Assembly (NCBI RefSeq): GCF_035621135.1
Contig: NZ_CP141728.1
Span: 1-64,000 of the forward strand
From: Sinanaerobacter sp. ZZT-01
Lineage (GTDB): Bacteria; Bacillota; Clostridia; Peptostreptococcales; Anaerovoracaceae
Direction: 5' to 3'
DNA: 64,000 nt
Both the position numbers and the translations under genes were made by a program. Position 1 is the stretch's first letter; each line of letters opens with the position of its first letter. Shown piece after piece: positions 2,821 to 10,197 of the stretch. A model generated the notes under the pieces. The model was not told the origin of the DNA, searched no databases, and worked only from the letters and a program-made list of their open reading frames with translations.

Positions 2821-3507
2821 TTATTTTACACAATATTCTTGCAAATATGCTTCCATTTGCTGCTTTACAGCATCATCAATGTGAACTTTTCCGTTCACTT
2901 CTACATTATAAAGCGTATCTATGATCTCTCGAACAGTCACAATCGGATACGTCTTAATTCCGAATTCTTCTTCAATTTCTTGAATTGCTGTCTTATTTCC
3001 ATTTCCTCTTTCCATACGATCGACAGAAATGATCAAGCCCTCTATCTTTATATCCGCTTCCGCTTTAATAATTGGAAAACACTCTCTAACTGCAGTTCCG
3101 GCTGTAATGACATCCTCGATAATGAGTACTCTATCGCCGTCCTTCAGCTTATACCCAACCATGTTACCGCCTTCACCGTGATCTTTCACTTCTTTCCGAT
3201 TGAAGCAATAGTTTACATTGCACTGAAATTCACTCGCCAATGCGATGGAAGCTGCCACAGCTAGAGGAATGCCTTTATATGCCGGTCCAAATAATGCTGT
3301 AATATTTCTGGAAATGTGTCCTTTTTTACAATTTTCTTCTATACATCTAGCATAAAATTGACCGAGTTTCGCTGCCTGCTCTCCGGTCTTGTAATTTCCT
3401 GTATTAATAAAATATGGTGTCTTTCTTCCACTTTTAGTTGTAAAATCTCCAAAGGTCAATACCCCGGAATCTACCATAAATTCAATAAAACTCTTTTTAT
3501 AATCCAT
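2821..3507 (-). CDS. pyrE: Orotate phosphoribosyltransferase
   Basis: A 228-residue type I phosphoribosyltransferase that joins orotate to PRPP to give OMP. The PRPP-binding motif RVLIIEDVITAGTAV and the flexible-loop segment RKEVKDHGEGG are present. The start MDYKKSF was chosen because AAAAGGAG lies just upstream; the longer frame would overlap pyrD. It is the last gene of the pyr operon. The presence of PyrF and PyrE as separate proteins is usual for bacteria. Confidence 0.95.
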   Translation of the reverse strand: MDYKKSFIEFMVDSGVLTFGDFTTKSGRKTPYFINTGNYKTGEQAAKLGQFYARCIEENCKKGHISRNITALFGPAYKGIPLAVAASIALASEFQCNVNYCFNRKEVKDHGEGGNMVGYKLKDGDRVLIIEDVITAGTAVRECFPIIKAEADIKIEGLIISVDRMERGNGNKTAIQEIEEEFGIKTYPIVTVREIIDTLYNVEVNGKVHIDDAVKQQMEAYLQEYCVK

Positions 3508-3520
3508 ATTTTTTCTCCTT

Positions 3521-4462
3521 TTAATCACAAAAGGCATTTTGTATCTCTTTTATGCTGTGATATCCCATTTCTCTCATATAATTTTTGAGTTCTTCCAATA
3601 TCTCTATCGGTGCGGTTGGACGAATCAATGCTGCCGTTCCAATGGCCACCGCATTTGCTCCTGCCATCAGAAATTCTGCCACGTCTTCTCCGTTCATGAT
3701 TCCGCCTAATCCGATGATCGGAATGCTGACAACTTTACGAACTTCATAAACCATTCGAATCGCAATTGGTTTAATAGCCGGTCCGGAAAGACCTCCAGTC
3801 CTATTTGCAAGTACGGTTTTCGCACGACGTACATCAATACGCATCCCTAGCAGCGTATTGATTAATGAAATAGCATCCGCTCCTTCTGCTTCCACTGCTT
3901 TTGCGATCTCTGAAATATTCGTTACGTTTGGTGTTAATTTAATAATGACTGGTTTCTTTGTAATACCTCTTACTTTCTTAGTCACTTCAGCCGCCATCTT
4001 CGCATTGGTTCCAAATCCGATGCCGCCCTCTTTTACATTTGGACAGGAAATATTAATCTCCAGCATATCTACATCGGTATCTTCCAAACGTTTGACGGTA
4101 TGACAGTATTCTTCCAAAGTATGTCCTGCGACATTTGCAATCAAGTTTGTCTCATACTGCCTGATATACGGAATCTCTTCTGTAATAAATGATTCAACCC
4201 CTGGATTTTGCAGCCCGACAGCATTCAACATGCCGCCATAAGTTTCGGCAATACGCGGCGTTGGATTCCCCGTCCACGGTACATTAGAAACCCCTTTTGT
4301 TGTTACAGCTCCTAATTTGCTCAAATCATAGAAGGCACTGCTTTCTTTTGCAGAAAAAGTACCAGATGCAGTTGTAATCGGGTTTTTCCATTTCACTCCG
4401 GCAATCGTTACATTCAAGTTTAAATTCTCTGTATCGCTCTGCTTTAAAGTACTATCTTGCAT
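3521..4462 (-). CDS. pyrD: Dihydroorotate dehydrogenase, class 1B catalytic subunit
   Basis: A 313-residue FMN-binding TIM barrel that oxidises dihydroorotate to orotate. The active-site base is a cysteine (ISCPN, Cys140), which marks class 1 enzymes. Pairing with the adjacent PyrK marks class 1B, which uses NAD+. Other motifs include ITTASGTF and a C-terminal GLGGIMNGEDV phosphate-binding segment. The ATG at 4462 follows GAGGTGG with good spacing and overlaps the end of pyrK by 11 bases, so the two subunits are probably translationally coupled. A GTG at 4477 is an alternative start. Confidence 0.95.
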   Translation of the reverse strand: MQDSTLKQSDTENLNLNVTIAGVKWKNPITTASGTFSAKESSAFYDLSKLGAVTTKGVSNVPWTGNPTPRIAETYGGMLNAVGLQNPGVESFITEEIPYIRQYETNLIANVAGHTLEEYCHTVKRLEDTDVDMLEINISCPNVKEGGIGFGTNAKMAAEVTKKVRGITKKPVIIKLTPNVTNISEIAKAVEAEGADAISLINTLLGMRIDVRRAKTVLANRTGGLSGPAIKPIAIRMVYEVRKVVSIPIIGLGGIMNGEDVAEFLMAGANAVAIGTAALIRPTAPIEILEELKNYMREMGYHSIKEIQNAFCD

Positions 4463-5237
4463 CCCAGACCACCTCACTTCCCCAGAATACCGGACCGTCC
4501 TTACAAACTTTCTTTTTCATTTCTAGACCACTTTTATCTCGGATTGTACAAACGCATCCAACACAAGCTCCATACCCGCAGCCCATACGTTCTTCCATCG
4601 ATATTTGAATATCTTTTTCCTGCTGCAAAACATATTCAGTCAAAGCACGCAGCATCGGCTTCGGCCCGCATGCAAAATATGCGTCCGCACTTAAGTTTTC
4701 CTGCTCTATCAAATCCAAAACGGTTCCATGAAAACCGGATTTCCCAGAGTCAGTCGCTACATACAAGTCCGCACCCGCTTTAAGTAAAGGCTTCATAAGA
4801 AACGGCTCATTCTGAAATCCAATTACCGTTATGACTTTTATCCCTTTTTGTGACAATAAGTAAGTCAATTCCAGTAACGGAGGCACACCAATTCCTCCGC
4901 CAACCAGCATTGCAGTCTGTCCTTCTTTCATCATCGACAAATCATATCCATTTCCCTGCGGCATAGACATTCTTAGCTGATCACCAAATTCAAAAGCAGA
5001 CAGCTCTTTTGTACCTTTGCCCGTCACCCCATAAACCAATGTCAATTTTGCACCATCAATCCAGCAAATACTAATTGGTCTTGGCAGCAGGAAAGATTCA
5101 TTTTTCAAATATAGATTGACAAATTGCCCGCACTTTGCACAAAGCGCGGCATCTACACATTCTAATGTTATTTGATAAACATTCTCAGCAATGGATTCAT
5201 TTGATAAAACCCTTGCTATTAAATCGTATTTCTCCAT
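4452..5237 (-). CDS. pyrK: Dihydroorotate dehydrogenase electron-transfer subunit
   Basis: A 261-residue ferredoxin-reductase-like subunit that passes electrons from PyrD's FMN to NAD+. It shows the FAD motif RPISI, the nucleotide-binding turn GGGIGVPP and, near the C-terminus, the [2Fe-2S] ligand pattern CGYGACVGC with a later Cys in KKVCKDGP. GGGGG lies six bases before the chosen ATG (MEKYDL). The gene ends with TAG inside the start of pyrD. Confidence 0.95.
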   Translation of the reverse strand: MEKYDLIARVLSNESIAENVYQITLECVDAALCAKCGQFVNLYLKNESFLLPRPISICWIDGAKLTLVYGVTGKGTKELSAFEFGDQLRMSMPQGNGYDLSMMKEGQTAMLVGGGIGVPPLLELTYLLSQKGIKVITVIGFQNEPFLMKPLLKAGADLYVATDSGKSGFHGTVLDLIEQENLSADAYFACGPKPMLRALTEYVLQQEKDIQISMEERMGCGYGACVGCVCTIRDKSGLEMKKKVCKDGPVFWGSEVVWDAR

Positions 5238-5247
5238 CTCATCCCCC

Positions 5248-6174
5248 TTATAGTGCATTCTCTAAATCTTTTTTCATCGCAATCACAGCTTTTCTTGAAG
5301 CTTCGGCAAATTCGATTCCAACCGATTGTGCATCACCAAATTCCTCATCTTTTTGATAAGCTGCAATGATACCTCTTGAAGAATTAACGATCACTCCAAG
5401 ACCATCCTTATCAAAATACCCTTTTAAATCACTTCCGGTACCACCTTGTGCTCCATAGCCAGGGACCAGAAAGAATGTATGCGGCATCCGTTTACGCAAA
5501 GCAATCCCTTGCTCCTTATGTGTTGCTCCTACAACAGCACCGACTTTGCTGTAACCCATCGTCCCCATTACTTCTTTTCCCCATTCTGTCACAAGATCTG
5601 CGACTCTGAAATAAAGTGGTTCCCCATCTATTAGGCGATCCTGCAGCTCTCCACTGCCGGGATTGCTTGTTTTTACTAATATAAAAATCCCCTTATCCTT
5701 TTTTATACAAGGCTCTAAAAATGGTTTGATTCCGTCAACTCCGAAATAGGGATTAACCGTTATGTAGTCCTCTCCCCAAGGGTCAAATCTTTCACCTTCA
5801 ATCTCCACTCCATCGATATGTGCGGCATATGCCTCTGCCGTAGAAGAAATATCGCCCCGTTTAATATCTCCAATGATAATAAGGCCTTTTTCCTTTGCGT
5901 ATGCGATGGTATCCATATAAGCTGCAATACCCGAAAGTCCATATTTTTCATACATGGCAATTTGCGGTTTGACCGCCGGTACCAAATCCCATACCTGATC
6001 GATAATAGCTTTATTAAAAGTCAAAAACATCTCTGCAACGGCTTTCGGCGTTTTTCCATAACGTTCTAACATCTCTTCCTTTATGAATTTCGGAATCATT
6101 TTATAAGACGGATCCAGTCCCACAACCGTCGGATTTTTCGTTTCCATTATTTTTTTTAACAAACAATCGATCAT
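5248..6174 (-). CDS. pyrF: Orotidine 5'-phosphate decarboxylase, subfamily 2
   Basis: A 308-residue enzyme that decarboxylates OMP to UMP. It is the longer subfamily-2 form common in Clostridia and actinobacteria. The catalytic tetrad region is GDIKRGDI (Asp103, Lys105, Asp108). An LVPGYGAQGG phosphate-loop region lies in the C-terminal half. GGAGG is six bases before the ATG at 6174. It ends ten bases before pyrK. Confidence 0.95.
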   Translation of the reverse strand: MIDCLLKKIMETKNPTVVGLDPSYKMIPKFIKEEMLERYGKTPKAVAEMFLTFNKAIIDQVWDLVPAVKPQIAMYEKYGLSGIAAYMDTIAYAKEKGLIIIGDIKRGDISSTAEAYAAHIDGVEIEGERFDPWGEDYITVNPYFGVDGIKPFLEPCIKKDKGIFILVKTSNPGSGELQDRLIDGEPLYFRVADLVTEWGKEVMGTMGYSKVGAVVGATHKEQGIALRKRMPHTFFLVPGYGAQGGTGSDLKGYFDKDGLGVIVNSSRGIIAAYQKDEEFGDAQSVGIEFAEASRKAVIAMKKDLENAL

Positions 6175-6235
6175 ATTCTGCCTCCACATTTTTACATATA
6201 ATAAGCTGTCCCATGAAGCGGGGCAGCTTTACCTT

Positions 6236-7549
6236 CTATTCTAACGAGTAAACGACCTTCCCGTCAACCATTGTGTAGCAAATTTGTCCAAAAACTTTCC
6301 TCCCTATAAAAGGAGTATTCCTCGATTTGGAAGCAAAAGAATCAAGTCCTATTTCATATTCTCTTTCCACATCAATTACTGCAAGATCTGCTGCCTTCCC
6401 TACCTCAAGGATACCTCGGTCAATACCAAGAATTTGAGCCGGTGTCGCACTCATGCATGAAATGAACTCTTTCGGTGTTAAGATACCGGTTTTCACCAAT
6501 GCAGTGTAACTCAATGCAAAGCTTGTCTCCAATCCAATGATACCAAAAGGTGCTTCTTGAAATGGTCTTGCTTTTTCTTCGTGATGGTGCGGTGCATGAT
6601 CCGTGGCGATTACGTCAAGGGTGCCGTCCTTTAGTCCTTTTATAATTTCCAGACGGTCCTCTTCTGAACGTAAAGGGGGATTCATCTTCCAATTCGAATC
6701 GGCTGTTTTCATTCCTTCTTTCCCCTGAATCACATCTTGATCTGTCAGAACAAAATAATGTGGTGCCGTTTCCGCAGTAACTGGTATTCCATGTTGTTTT
6801 GCATGGCGAATCAATTCTACACTGCCCTTTGTACTGATATGACATAGATGTGTGCGGCATCCGGTATTCTTCGCTAAAAGAATGTCACGAATCGCTATGA
6901 TCTCCTCTGCTTCAGGCGGGATTCCGGGAAGTCCCAGGGAATGCGCAACTTCTCCTTCATTCATTACACCGCCTTTCGCAAGCTCTCGATCCTCGGTATG
7001 TGAAAAAATTGGTAAATCCAAGGCTTTTGCCTTTTCCATCGCCTTTTTCATAAGGAGAGAATCCATAACTGACTTCCCATCCTCACTCAACGCGAAAATA
7101 GAACCAGAAGCTTCTTTCATCGCTTCAAAATCACTCAGTATACTTCCTTCTTGCCCTAATGTGATAGCTCCAATCGGAAGCACGTTGACACAATTTGCTT
7201 CCATAGCTTTTTTGGAAACATATGCAACCATATCTGTATTATCAATCACAGGCTTTGTATTCGGCATCGGACAAACCGTAGTAAAACCACCCTTTGCAGC
7301 TGCAAGGCATCCACTTGCAATATCTTCTTTATATTCATACCCCGGCTCACGGAAATGGACATGCAGATCAATCAAGCCCGGGACAACCCATTTACCTTCT
7401 GCAAAAATTTCTCTATATTCCGTCTTGCTGCTTCCTTCGCCTGGTTCAGTAATCGCGGTAACGATCCCATCCTCAATATACACATCCGCCAGCCGCTCCA
7501 GATCATTTCGCGGACTGATTACCAATCCATTTCTTATGCACAATTTCAT
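6236..7549 (-). CDS. pyrC: Dihydroorotase, class I
   Basis: A 437-residue zinc amidohydrolase that cyclises carbamoyl-aspartate to dihydroorotate. The metal-binding DLHVHFREPG motif (His63, His65) and the C-terminal TDHAPHHHEEK motif are present, and the length is typical of class I. The ATG lies inside the end of pyrI, giving a 47-base overlap in a different frame. GGGAG nine bases upstream supports this start, and family members begin with the same MKLxIxNG pattern, so the overlap looks real. Confidence 0.95.
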   Translation of the reverse strand: MKLCIRNGLVISPRNDLERLADVYIEDGIVTAITEPGEGSSKTEYREIFAEGKWVVPGLIDLHVHFREPGYEYKEDIASGCLAAAKGGFTTVCPMPNTKPVIDNTDMVAYVSKKAMEANCVNVLPIGAITLGQEGSILSDFEAMKEASGSIFALSEDGKSVMDSLLMKKAMEKAKALDLPIFSHTEDRELAKGGVMNEGEVAHSLGLPGIPPEAEEIIAIRDILLAKNTGCRTHLCHISTKGSVELIRHAKQHGIPVTAETAPHYFVLTDQDVIQGKEGMKTADSNWKMNPPLRSEEDRLEIIKGLKDGTLDVIATDHAPHHHEEKARPFQEAPFGIIGLETSFALSYTALVKTGILTPKEFISCMSATPAQILGIDRGILEVGKAADLAVIDVEREYEIGLDSFASKSRNTPFIGRKVFGQICYTMVDGKVVYSLE

Positions 7550-7985
7550 TTACATTATCTCCCTTCATACTCACAATATCATCGCAGTACTCACATCGAT
7601 ATTCTCTGTTTTGTTCATTAATCAGATGAAAAATATGCGGTGCATTCGCTTCTACCGAGGTCACACACCTAGGGTTTTTGCATCGGATCACATTCGTTAC
7701 CTTCTTAGGCATCTCCGGCTTTATTTTTTTTGAAATAATATGATCTTCAATAATGTTTACTGTGCAATCCGGATCAATCAGTCCTAATACAGCCAAATCC
7801 ACATCGATCACTTTATCAATTTTTATTACATCTTTTTTTCCATATTTTCCGCTGCTCGCATTCATTAAAAAGGCAACAGAATGTTTCTCTGTATCTATGT
7901 CTAAATAATTTAAAATCTTCGCGCCAAGACCTGCTTTAATGTGGTCAATTACGATCCCTTTTTCTATACTGTTTATCACTACCAT
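7503..7985 (-). CDS. pyrI: Aspartate carbamoyltransferase regulatory subunit
   Basis: A 160-residue regulatory chain. It has an N-terminal allosteric domain that binds nucleotides in the family (GIVIDHIKAG) and a C-terminal zinc domain with four ligands: CKNPRC (Cys102, Cys107) and CEYC (Cys131, Cys134). Its presence predicts an E. coli-like ATCase holoenzyme with allosteric feedback by nucleotides. AGGAGG is seven bases before the ATG. Confidence 0.95.
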   Translation of the reverse strand: MVVINSIEKGIVIDHIKAGLGAKILNYLDIDTEKHSVAFLMNASSGKYGKKDVIKIDKVIDVDLAVLGLIDPDCTVNIIEDHIISKKIKPEMPKKVTNVIRCKNPRCVTSVEANAPHIFHLINEQNREYRCEYCDDIVSMKGDNVNEIVHKKWIGNQSAK

Positions 7986-8038: not shown

Positions 8039-8965
8039 TTAGATCTCGATACCGAGCAAGCTCATAATTAAAGCCATTCTCACATACATTCCATATTTCG
8101 CCTGCTTAAAGTAAAGTGCTCTTGGGTCCTCATCCACTTCTACTGCAATTTCATTGACTCTAGGCAGAGGATGCAGCACCATCATATCATTTTTTGCTAA
8201 CTCCATTTTAGGTGCATCTAATATATAGCTGTCCTTTAATCGTATATAATCTTCCTCATTGAAAAATCTTTCCTTCTGTACCCTTGTCATGTACAGCATA
8301 TCCAATTCAGAAAGAACATCTTGCATCTTTTCTACTTCTTTAAATGGGATATTGTTTTTGATTAAAATTTCTTTTCTTACATATTCAGGAATACGCAATT
8401 CTTCCGGTGCTATCAATACAAATTTTACTCCCTTATATCGAGAGAGTGCTTTGATAAGAGAATGCACGGTTCTTCCAAATTTTAAGTCCCCGCAGAGACC
8501 AACCGTTAAGTTTTCAAAGCTGCCTTTCTCTCTATGAATGGTCAATAAGTCTGTCAACGTTTGTGTTGGATGCATGTGACCGCCATCTCCTGCATTAATG
8601 ACAGGCATTTCTGTACTCCATGCTGCAACCTTTGGAGCACCTTCTTTCGGATGACGCATTACGGCAATGTCACAGTAACAAGCTACCGTCCGAATGGTAT
8701 CTGCGATACTTTCTCCCTTTGCAACAGAACTGGAATTTGGCTCTGAAAACCCGATCACTTGTCCACCTAAACGAAGCATGGCCGCCTCAAAGCTAAATCT
8801 GGTCCTTGTACTTGGTTCATAAAACAATGTTGCCAATAATTTCCCATCACATGCGTGAGCATATTTCTTTGGTTCTTCTATAATTCTATCAGCTAATTTA
8901 AAAATTTCACCCATTTCCTCTACTGTAAAATCCATTGGCTCCAATAAACTTCTTCCTGTTAACAT
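8039..8965 (-). CDS. pyrB: Aspartate carbamoyltransferase catalytic subunit
   Basis: A 308-residue enzyme that makes carbamoyl-aspartate, the first committed step of UMP synthesis. The carbamoyl-phosphate motif [10 protein letters not shown] (residues 51-60) and the HPLPRVNE motif near residue 265 are intact. It is the first structural gene of the operon and is preceded by a long leader with an attenuator. Its ribosome site is AGGAGAAAGGAG. pyrI follows 53 bases downstream, matching a stoichiometric PyrB-PyrI complex. Confidence 0.97.
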
Positions 8966-8995
8966 ACCTCTTTCTCCTTTCTCCTGTAAGCAAAT

Positions 8996-9017
8996 ATTTC
9001 CTTTAAAGTAAGGAAAT
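8996..9017. other. Hairpin upstream of the pyrB ribosome site
   Basis: ATTTCCTT and AAGGAAAT form a perfect eight-base stem with a six-base loop, ending about ten bases upstream of the pyrB ribosome site. It may affect mRNA stability or translation initiation after readthrough of the attenuator. Confidence 0.4.
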
Positions 9018-9143
9018 CGTTCAATCCACCTAAAAAAGCATTCCTTATTTGCTGCTCCTGTAAAAAAGCAGTCCGCGTTTTATCATTCACGGCAGAAGGC
9101 TTTCTCCTCTCATTCTTTATATAATGAAAAAAGCTTTTCCCAT

Positions 9144-9173
9144 AAAAAAAAGTCTTCCAAAAAGGAAGACTTT
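9144..9173 (-). terminator. Attenuator terminator of the pyr operon leader
   Basis: On the minus strand AAAGTCTTCC (9173-9164) and GGAAGACTTT (9158-9149) form a perfect ten-base stem with a five-base U loop, followed by a run of U. This is a strong intrinsic terminator placed about 180 bases before pyrB. Its first base is the last base of the leader-peptide stop codon, so a ribosome at the stop would cover the stem. Confidence 0.9.
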
Positions 9174-9286
9174 CAATCAATGGTAACTGTATTAGAGATA
9201 GAAATAGAAAAAACGAATTGACCGACTGTGGTCGGGTAAGAAGCTCTCTTTTTTGTTTCTTTTCTTCGAGTATAAAGCATTCTCAT
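9173..9286 (-). CDS. Putative pyrBI-type leader peptide (37 residues)
   Basis: Read on the minus strand, AAAGGAT is followed after four bases by ATG and an open frame starting MRMLYTRRKETKKRASYP and ending VTID-TGA. The start lies about 27 bases after the predicted transcription start. The frame passes through the GC hairpin and the U-rich tract and stops at the foot of the attenuator stem. Position and architecture resemble E. coli PyrL, although the peptide sequence is different; in that system coupling of translation to transcription, not the peptide, matters. Identity as a real leader is inferred. Confidence 0.6.
   Translation of the reverse strand: MRMLYTRRKETKKRASYPTTVGQFVFSISISNTVTID
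9191..9235 (-). promoter_or_regulatory. Putative pause hairpin and U-rich tract in the pyr leader
   Basis: On the minus strand CCGAC-CACA-GTCGG (9235-9222) forms a five-base GC-rich stem. It is followed by GTTTTTTCTATTTCTATCTC, which would be a U-rich RNA. In enterobacterial pyrBI a hairpin and U-rich run cause polymerase to pause when UTP is low, letting the ribosome catch up. No PyrR-binding motif was recognised. Confidence 0.5.
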
Positions 9287-9320
9287 TCTTATCCTTTCGT
9301 TTTCTACTTAAATCTTCAAT

Positions 9321-9349
9321 ATATTAACACAAGCATGTTAACTGGTCAA
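9321..9349 (-). promoter_or_regulatory. Sigma-A promoter of the pyr operon
   Basis: On the minus strand: -35 TTGACC (9349-9344), a 17-base spacer and -10 TAATAT (9326-9321). Expected start site is near 9314. The spacer contains a short inverted repeat TTAACA...TGTTAA that could bind a regulator. Confidence 0.85.
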
Positions 9350-9397
9350 GTCTATTTTATTAAATTTTTTCAAATATTTTTTGCTATTCTCTTCTTT

Positions 9398-10177
9398 TTA
9401 TTTTTTCATGTGAACATCCATCTGAGGATATGGAATCGAAATATGTTGAACATCAAATGCTAATTTAACCTGCTCTTGTAAAAAATAATAGACATCCCAG
9501 TAATCCTCTGTTGCACACCAAACTTTTAAATCAAACTCAACTGCATTATCGCCAAGGGCGGCAATTCCGATTGTTACTTTTGGTTCATTGAATATCTTTG
9601 GATTGGAGGCGGCAACATTTTCTAAAATTTCCTTCACCAATGCAATATCGTCTTCATATCCAACTCCAAACTTACAATCTACTCGTCTTTTTTGCTCCCT
9701 TGAATAGTTTACAATTGTGGTATTCGCTAATTTCCCATTTGGAATGGTAATCACCTTGTTATCAAAAGTCATCAGTGTCGTATAGAGAAGATCAATTTTT
9801 TCTACTTTACCTGCTATCTCCATATCTTCAATAAAATCTCCCTTAGAAAATGGCTTTGATATAATAATTAAAATACCTCCTGCAAAATTGCTTAAGCTGT
9901 CTTTTAAAGCAAGAGCAACCGCTACACCGGCAGCTCCCAATACGGTTAAAAATGACGTCGGCGGAATTCCTAAATAGCTCAAAGCTGTAATGAGCAGCAT
10001 AATCCATAATAGCATCTTCAAGCAATTTAAAAAGAAAGTATGAAGTACTTCATCAATTTTTGTCTTTTTCAGCCCTCGCTTTAATATTTTTGTCAAAATA
10101 CAAATTAAAATGTATCCGATTAATAAAATCAATGCGGTCATTCCTATTTTTATCAAAATTGTGTTCATATTTGGCAT
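9398..10177 (-). CDS. MscS-family small-conductance mechanosensitive channel
   Basis: A 259-residue membrane protein with three hydrophobic segments in the first 110 residues. The pore helix region LGAAGVAVALALKDSLSNFAGG and the following beta-domain signature PFSKGDFIEDMEIAGKVEKI are typical of MscS. The channel opens under membrane tension and releases solutes during hypo-osmotic shock. AAGGAG is seven bases before the ATG. It follows the metallo-hydrolase gene by 20 bases and may be co-transcribed with it. Confidence 0.93.
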   Translation of the reverse strand: MPNMNTILIKIGMTALILLIGYILICILTKILKRGLKKTKIDEVLHTFFLNCLKMLLWIMLLITALSYLGIPPTSFLTVLGAAGVAVALALKDSLSNFAGGILIIISKPFSKGDFIEDMEIAGKVEKIDLLYTTLMTFDNKVITIPNGKLANTTIVNYSREQKRRVDCKFGVGYEDDIALVKEILENVAASNPKIFNEPKVTIGIAALGDNAVEFDLKVWCATEDYWDVYYFLQEQVKLAFDVQHISIPYPQMDVHMKK

Positions 10178-10197
10178 CACTCATCTCCTTATGTCTA

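Follow-up and report, generated by a model that had tools for sequence, protein, structure and literature searches.

PyrR is the usual means by which pyrimidine (pyr) genes are controlled in the Bacillota. The pyr operon of Sinanaerobacter sp. ZZT-01, a member of the Anaerovoracaceae (Clostridia), raises the question of how such an operon may be regulated without this protein. The DNA analyzed here, referred to as the window, is the first 64,000 nucleotides of contig NZ_CP141728.1 (assembly GCF_035621135.1); the source genome is this one contig of 3.37 Mb. An earlier note, made from the sequence alone, had likened the region before pyrB to the leader-peptide attenuator of Escherichia coli pyrBI. 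We consider it likely, with a probability of about 70%, that this is a UTP-responsive control region that works like that of E. coli pyrBI and does so without PyrR; its anatomy was observed directly, and from it we infer the response to UTP.

Anatomy of the pyr leader

As the earlier note had described, a promoter, a ribosome binding site, a 37-codon open reading frame (ORF), a hairpin, a U-rich stretch and a terminator are all found within positions 8966-9349 of the minus strand (Table 1). The terminator stem does begin at the leader stop codon: the TGA shares first bases with the stem. From this stop it is about 180 nt to the start of pyrB. The downstream genes follow in the order pyrBICFKDE, all on the minus strand, and profile matches over cut-off bear out the identification of the first two as pyrB and pyrI.

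Table 1. Positions of the control elements and genes of the pyr locus in the window.
Feature	Positions	Strand	Remarks
Sigma-A type promoter	9321-9349	-	-35 TTGACC 9349-9344; spacer 17 nt; -10 TAATAT 9326-9321
Predicted +1 and initially transcribed region, GATTTAAG	9307-9314	-	T3 at 9312-9310 (+3 to +5); proposed UTP-sensitive slippage element
Shine-Dalgarno sequence of leader ORF	9292-9297	-	AAAGGA
Leader ORF	9173-9286	-	37 codons and TGA stop; ATG at 9286, TGA 9175-9173
Small GC hairpin	9222-9235	-	CCGAC-CACA-GTCGG; weakly supported
U-rich tract in leader ORF	9190-9217	-	Approximate limits; proposed site of RNA polymerase slow-down at low UTP
Intrinsic terminator (attenuator)	9144-9174	-	11-bp stem, 5-nt loop (9174-9148); eight-U run 9151-9144
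Attenuator-pyrB segment without alignment to sister genome	8990-9140	-	
pyrB, aspartate carbamoyltransferase catalytic subunit	8039-8965	-	TIGR00670, 343.6 bits, over cut-off
pyrI, regulatory subunit	7503-7985	-	NF002063, 196.6 bits, over cut-off
pyrC, dihydroorotase	6236-7549	-	TIGR00857, over cut-off
pyrF	5248-6189	-	TIGR02127, over cut-off
pyrK	4452-5258	-	NF000799, 238.6 bits, below cut-off of 314
pyrD	3521-4477	-	NF005574, over cut-off
pyrE	2923-3483	-	TIGR00336, over cut-off

The locus resembles E. coli pyrBI in having, in this order, a promoter, a start with two purines and TTT, a Shine-Dalgarno sequence, a short ORF, a pyrimidine-rich stretch, a terminator, pyrB and pyrI. The likeness drawn by the earlier note holds for the order of the parts but not for the end of the ORF, which lies at the base of the terminator stem, whereas in E. 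coli the pyrL frame continues through the attenuator to end 3 nt short of pyrB. Unlike E. coli pyrBI, pyrB and pyrI of the window stand in the same gene row as pyrCFKDE. The leader peptide gave no BLASTP alignment with E. coli PyrL at E values up to 100, in agreement with the lack of similarity remarked on before; homology to PyrL is not supported by this comparison, and the earlier wording of convergent or very diverged control stands. Because of the missing alignment and the different stop position, the locus is likened to pyrBI in its working, not by descent.

A pattern scan of the window by itself is unimpressive: for positions 8500 to 9800, where 4.0 promoter-like sites and 0.7 terminators are expected, the consensus scan returned 3 and 1, respectively. 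The statistical case rests on relatives and on conservation. The leader RNA of the window folds more stably than its own shuffles (z -3.9).

In the genome G001, of the same genus, the promoter, the start region, the ORF (MIFNNRKKETKKSASYPTMIGQFAFSIFIFNTFIC) and the terminator are all kept. The two genomes have the same terminator sequence, and the aligned DNA is 79% identical; for the leader ORFs dN is 0.20 and dS 0.55 (35 codons). Between terminator and pyrB the window has about 104 nt more than G001, most of it sequence that cannot be aligned. The segment 8985-9142 was considered as a genomic repeat and rejected, since it has just weak short matches elsewhere (best E 0.01).

Other features were seen around the leader. 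A TTG-initiated open frame of 73 codons (8959-9180, minus strand), for which no ribosome site was seen by eye, extends from an overlap with the leader stop across the terminator to an end inside the start of pyrB, thereby covering the segment that cannot be aligned to the sister genome. Directly upstream of the leader lies an mscS-type channel gene (9398-10180, minus strand), and mscS-like sequence 5' of pyrB was also recognized by eye in several relatives (e.g. L008, L011, L014 and L033), in one of them without a leader. The closest named pyrB relative in the scan, from which records of the genome itself were possibly excluded, was that of Bacilliculturomica massiliensis (87%), which NCBI taxonomy places in the Anaerovoracaceae, Clostridia; several other pyrB relatives are labelled Clostridiales Family XIII.

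PyrR in the genome and in the family

The locus shares with the PyrR attenuators (RF00515) the phylum and the attenuation of a pyr operon. It differs from them in that no PyrR over cut-off was found in the source genome (best match 21.8 bits, cut-off 138) and in that an Rfam search of the window gave no match at gathering score, the PyrR site included. Six of 14 control genomes, B. subtilis among them, exceeded the cut-off in the same kind of search. Both results agree with the earlier failure to recognize a PyrR-binding motif.

That PyrR is the usual control in Firmicutes, as the earlier note had also stated, applies to this family in part: PyrR with a site-like leader occurs in two relatives, but PyrR over cut-off was found in a minority of the family (80 of 292 genomes). 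Among 62 genomes checked, which include all leader-bearing genomes except that of L115, exactly two (G036 and G085) have PyrR. Their upstream regions gave sub-threshold matches to the Rfam PyrR-site model (41.0 and 50.1 bits, respectively; gathering score 54); for comparison, the same model scored 45.5 bits in Clostridium drakei and 61.1 bits in Fervidicella. Neither G036 nor G085 has a leader ORF reaching the terminator when the start codon is chosen by its Shine-Dalgarno match; a 14-codon GTG ORF ending at -4 in the upstream region of G036 (L022) was passed over by this rule.

Leader ORFs of the Anaerovoracaceae

The upstream DNA of pyrB was read for 30 loci of the family and for 60 further family stretches, 10 of which had no pyrB match. 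These 90 upstream regions come from the genomes with the PyrB most like that of the window, out of 288 with a match, and the sample thus leans to close relatives. A script with fixed rules was run on 64 of the regions (the 30 loci, 33 of the 60 stretches and L115). The filter for promoter and terminator was passed by 34, two of them in PyrR genomes, leaving 32 leaders with that of the window included. The leader ORF was defined by the start codon whose Shine-Dalgarno match was best, wherever the frame stopped, and the null distribution was obtained by shuffling the interior of the ORF while keeping its start, its last bases and the terminator.

None of the 32 ORFs closes before position -10 relative to the terminator stem. 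In 27 of them the stop codon falls between -9 and +12 nt relative to the stem, where the shuffles lead one to expect 5.4 (s.d. 1.8), and in 21 it lies at exactly -1, representing 15 of 20 genera (L115 being counted as its own genus); at least one leader with a stop near the stem was found in 19 of the 20. The median length of the ORF was 37 codons, and the peptides differ widely between genera. A coding signal was seen in related pairs, with dN/dS of 0.12 to 0.65 over seven of them as values without a significance test and an undefined value for an eighth. L013 and L014 belong to one genus; read by eye, the leader of L014 uses a frame shifted from that of L013, and its stop is still near the terminator. 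Clostridium aminobutyricum DSM 2634 (L107) and Bacilliculturomica massiliensis (L106) are culturable relatives with such a leader. The search of relatives proposed by the earlier note thus found the arrangement to recur in the family, and a nearly fixed stop position combined with differing peptides favours the logic it had suggested, that of a translated leader, a U-rich stretch and a coupled ribosome without PyrR.

The ORF passes on through the terminator in four of the 32 leaders (L047, L052, L057 and L058), and L032, with its stop at -10, was scored as a miss. Leader-like parts were recognized in 10 of the 30 upstream regions that failed the filter (L017, L024, L046, L049, L066, L069, L073, L074, L077 and L079), with stop offsets of -9 (L024), -5 (L046), +8 (L066 and L077), +33 (L049 and L069), +50 (L073) and +54 (L079). 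The upstream region L038 is cut by a contig end. By our reading 19 of the 64 regions have no leader, which counts against our main reading.

The three leaders of genus g72 (L018, L019 and L021) share the stretch YPSVFELICLLPLSG, with one substitution in L019, and the ending DDC[IL]I. The stop position alone does not explain such a conserved stretch, which therefore counts against our main reading, and a sequence-specific role for it is possible.

Several single loci were also recorded. The leader of L016 contains three similar in-frame repeats (ADCLFYSKDK, ADCLFRSQGK and ANCLFYSLSV), an expansion that keeps the frame. In genome G194 the attenuator is separated from pyrB by a Clostridiales-2 RNA (RF02937, 75 bits; L013 1238-1326, plus strand). 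The pyrB match G178:C62:5499-6416, downstream of L047, has one internal TGA, attributable to a sequencing error, a pseudogene or recoding.

For spread to other families, 79 named pyrB loci were scanned and a row of ORF and terminator was found in 12. Outside the family, a leader ORF, a U-rich stretch and a terminator precede pyrB convincingly in L154 (Defluviitaleaceae) and less so in L127 (Lachnospiraceae).

The U-rich tract and RNA pairing

When the 32 leaders were aligned on the terminator stem, the T content was 44% in the last 20 nt, compared with 21-25% at 60-120 nt upstream. The last 60 nt averaged 37% T versus 24% upstream and were T-richer than the rest in 28 leaders; with one leader per genus this was the case in 18 of 20 genera (Wilcoxon p 2.7e-5). 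The matching 60 nt of pyrBI in E. coli K-12 contain 27% T and 35% C, so that the E. coli stretch is pyrimidine-rich, with more C than T, whereas the family leaders are T-rich.

A GC pause hairpin had also been claimed. Its sequence is present in the window, but over the 32 leaders the best local hairpin had a mean z of -0.61 (s.e. 0.24, rough doublet shuffle), and a hairpin synchronizing ribosome and polymerase is weakly supported, which counts against our main reading. Duplex energies compared with shuffles showed no excess pairing of the kind expected from an antiterminator over the 32 leaders (mean z -0.23, s.e. 0.19; window z +0.5). The fold of the leader in the window had pointed to pairing of the Shine-Dalgarno region with the U-rich tract; this was rejected, as no excess was found over the relatives (mean z -0.21, s.e. 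0.17). The evidence does not include paired changes in the terminator stem because the finder had required pairing.

The start-site element

Transcripts of E. coli pyrBI start with AAUUUG, and those of codBA and upp with one or two purines followed by T3 or a longer run. An additional element, absent from the earlier note, was recognized at 9314-9307 of the window. The start predicted from the spacing to the -10 box is the G at 9314, 6 nt after the box; the RNA would begin GAUUUAAG, with T3 at +3 to +5.

The element was scored, with no requirement for T, in 44 pyrB upstream regions selected by eye because a leader or a promoter could be seen in them (L028, L072 and L076 partly for a visible T run). 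TTT at +3 to +5 was found in 25 of the 44 and in neither of the two PyrR genomes; the 19 promoters without T3 at +3 count against our main reading. Among strong pyrB promoters it was present in 24 of 37 (23 of 36 without L028), with at most five at any other offset scanned, and in 13 of 23 when one promoter per genus was taken. Of 38 control promoters, from about 463 kb of eight of the same genomes, one has TTT there. The bases around T3 vary by genus (GATTTAAG, AATTTG, AATTTTG, AGTTTG) and the register is constant.

A pattern combining promoter and start gave 22 matches in 18 genomes, 17 at the pyrB promoter and 5 elsewhere, and none when reversed; in the source genome the single match is at the pyr promoter. 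Since the pattern was drawn from these promoters, 17 of 18 genomes is not an independent count, and the rarity of matches elsewhere is independent. Over 393 genomes of the order the pattern had 68 matches in 61 genomes, versus 25 in 24 for its reverse. By coordinates, 15 of the 68 are pyrB promoters. Among 23 other matches that were opened, 16 stand before a dihydroorotase-like ORF (4 of the 16 profile-checked), 2 before pyrK (one of them profile-checked) and 5 elsewhere. The order-wide count is 33 of 68 before pyr genes, 6 others opened that looked unrelated (L223 and L269-L273) and 29 left unopened.

The loci with promoter and GATTTRRG start element before pyrC-like ORFs (16) or pyrK (2) are L248-L251, L253, L254 and L257-L268; as judged from these sequences, the putative start element travels with the first gene of the rearranged pyr operon. 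Both pyrK loci (L250 and L251) combine it with a 41-codon leader and a T content of 45% over the 60 nt that precede the terminator, and the leader stop is past the 5' arm of the terminator. At 14 of the 16 pyrC loci such a leader would not fit in, because the ORF starts no more than about 100 nt from the -35 box.

Like the UTP-sensitive reiterative promoters of E. coli pyrBI and carAB P1, the pyr promoter of the window precedes pyrimidine genes and has a start of one or two purines ahead of at least three T (PMC6245113, in excerpt); the start site of the window is, unlike theirs, predicted from spacing, and its slippage is putative. According to the same excerpt, interrupting the T3 start tract of carAB P1 abolishes reiterative control, and stuttering is favoured by an A start with 8-bp spacing over a G start with 7 bp. 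The predicted start of the window, a G at 6 nt from the -10 box, would therefore not be favoured for stuttering. Conservation of the start-site block (TTGAAGATTTRRG) spans roughly positions -6 to +8; that it reaches beyond T3 on either side counts against slippage, being more than slippage needs. We regard an initiation-level UTP element at the promoter of the window as probable.

A proposed two-layer model of UTP control

The best reading of these data is control by UTP in two layers, in which slippage at the start site would be combined with ribosome-coupled attenuation. From the anatomy, its conservation and the absence of a detected PyrR, all of which were observed, we infer translation of the leader, slippage, pausing, coupling and the response to UTP.

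In the first layer, RNA polymerase starting a transcript with GAUUU would slip on T3 when UTP is plentiful and abort, and few polymerases would escape; at low UTP there would be less slippage and more polymerases would leave the promoter. In the second layer, a ribosome would begin the leader ORF just after the promoter. At low UTP the polymerase would slow down in the second half of the leader, which is rich in U, so that the ribosome could catch up; standing at the stop codon on the base of the terminator, the ribosome would hold the 5' arm of the stem under its footprint and keep the hairpin from forming, and transcription would read through into pyrBICFKDE. At high UTP the polymerase would outrun the ribosome, the hairpin would form and transcription would stop. 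The signal would lie in the open frame, the U-rich tract and the position of the stop, and not in the peptide sequence.

By its geometry, a ribosome on the leader ORF is expected to cover the 5' arm of the terminator. In E. coli a stop codon 5 bp before a terminator lowers termination from about 90% to under 10% (excerpt of PMC4824070). RNA polymerase of B. subtilis is said to pause on T-rich sequences; the same excerpt (PMC13323073) describes runaway transcription in this species, with polymerase outpacing the ribosomes, which counts against our main reading, as it would work against coupling.

Both layers have relatives among known Gram-positive systems, histidine leader peptides in bacilli (PMC2965389) and slippage at pyrG (PMC4448216), each taken here from partial text of the source. 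B. subtilis pyrG is, like the pyr locus of the window, a nucleotide gene of a Gram-positive organism with a terminator and slippage at the start site. It responds to CTP, with pseudo-templated G residues preventing attenuation, where the window has a U tract and a leader ORF; the excerpt of PMC4448216 does not mention a leader peptide. The hisS and hisZ attenuators of bacilli are leader-peptide controls within the Bacillota, and their leaders carry a stretch of histidine codons, unlike the leader of the window (PMC2965389, in excerpt).

Alternative explanations

The alternative that survives best, unlikely as we hold it to be, is that leader attenuation is real and senses translation or an amino acid instead of UTP, as an ordinary attenuator of the leader-peptide type or a general sensor of coupling would. 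The leader looks translated and ends at the terminator, and leader-peptide attenuators of histidine genes are reported in Firmicutes (partial text of PMC2965389). Inspection of the family leader peptides found no common codon run for any single amino acid, however, and both the lack of an antiterminator signal over the 32 leaders and the presence of the T3 start element speak against such sensing. The stop codon, moreover, is here at the stem, whereas terminators of amino-acid attenuators lie more than 20 bp from the leader gene (excerpt of PMC4824070).

It is rather improbable that a repressor or an RNA-binding protein acting on the conserved block at the start site replaces PyrR. Other genera keep just the purines and T3-T5 in the same register (AATTTG, AATTTTG, AGTTTG), and the block is by inspection not palindromic, although its conservation around the start and its movement with the pyr promoter between gene orders are what a protein-binding site would lead one to expect.

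More improbable still is regulation by the promoter element alone, through UTP-sensitive slippage or start-site choice, with the leader terminator acting as a constitutive brake. At 14 of the 16 pyrC-like loci the start element does occur without room for a leader, and in L028 it occurs before pyrB without a detected terminator. The constant stop position and an ORF that always reaches the terminator would be left unexplained, as would the leader and terminator before pyrK in L250 and L251.

That the pyrimidine-rich leader is a loading site for Rho, from which translation would protect the transcript, is very improbable. The genome contains rho, and in B. subtilis Rho ends pyrimidine-rich transcripts, T-richness being one of their marks; another mark is high C over more than 150 nt (PMC13323073, in excerpt), whereas the tract here spans about 60 nt, and an intrinsic terminator, identical in the sister genome, stands at the control point. 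Least probable of all is that the leader is controlled through an RNA antiterminator by PyrR or some other factor acting in trans, PyrR being the usual solution of the phylum and one with both gene and PyrR-like site in two of the 62 relatives checked, as the genome has no PyrR over cut-off, the window no Rfam match at gathering score and the leaders no detected antiterminator signal.

Implications for pyrimidine control in the Bacillota

Among the open-access matches listed, judged by title and start of abstract, none described a leader-peptide attenuator of pyr genes in Bacillota, a limited negative. We give even odds to the broader proposal that a clade of Gram-positive anaerobes built a whole two-step sensor of the pyrBI type in the place of PyrR, apparently independently, with the stop codon set on the terminator and the terminating ribosome as antiterminator. 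On this proposal, the leader would couple transcription tightly to translation, although runaway transcription is a noted trait of the phylum, and control of pyr genes would be swappable as a whole between an RNA-binding protein and the kinetics of polymerase and ribosome.

If two-layer control by UTP is true, pyrBI-type control would be extended from enteric bacteria to a family of Clostridia. Coupling of transcription and translation would become testable in the Bacillota, where polymerase is thought to outrun the ribosomes. The leaders, with differing peptides and a nearly fixed stop, form a natural series suited to measuring the distance between ribosome and polymerase at which a terminator is blocked. 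PyrR and protein-free control of the same operon may be compared within one family.
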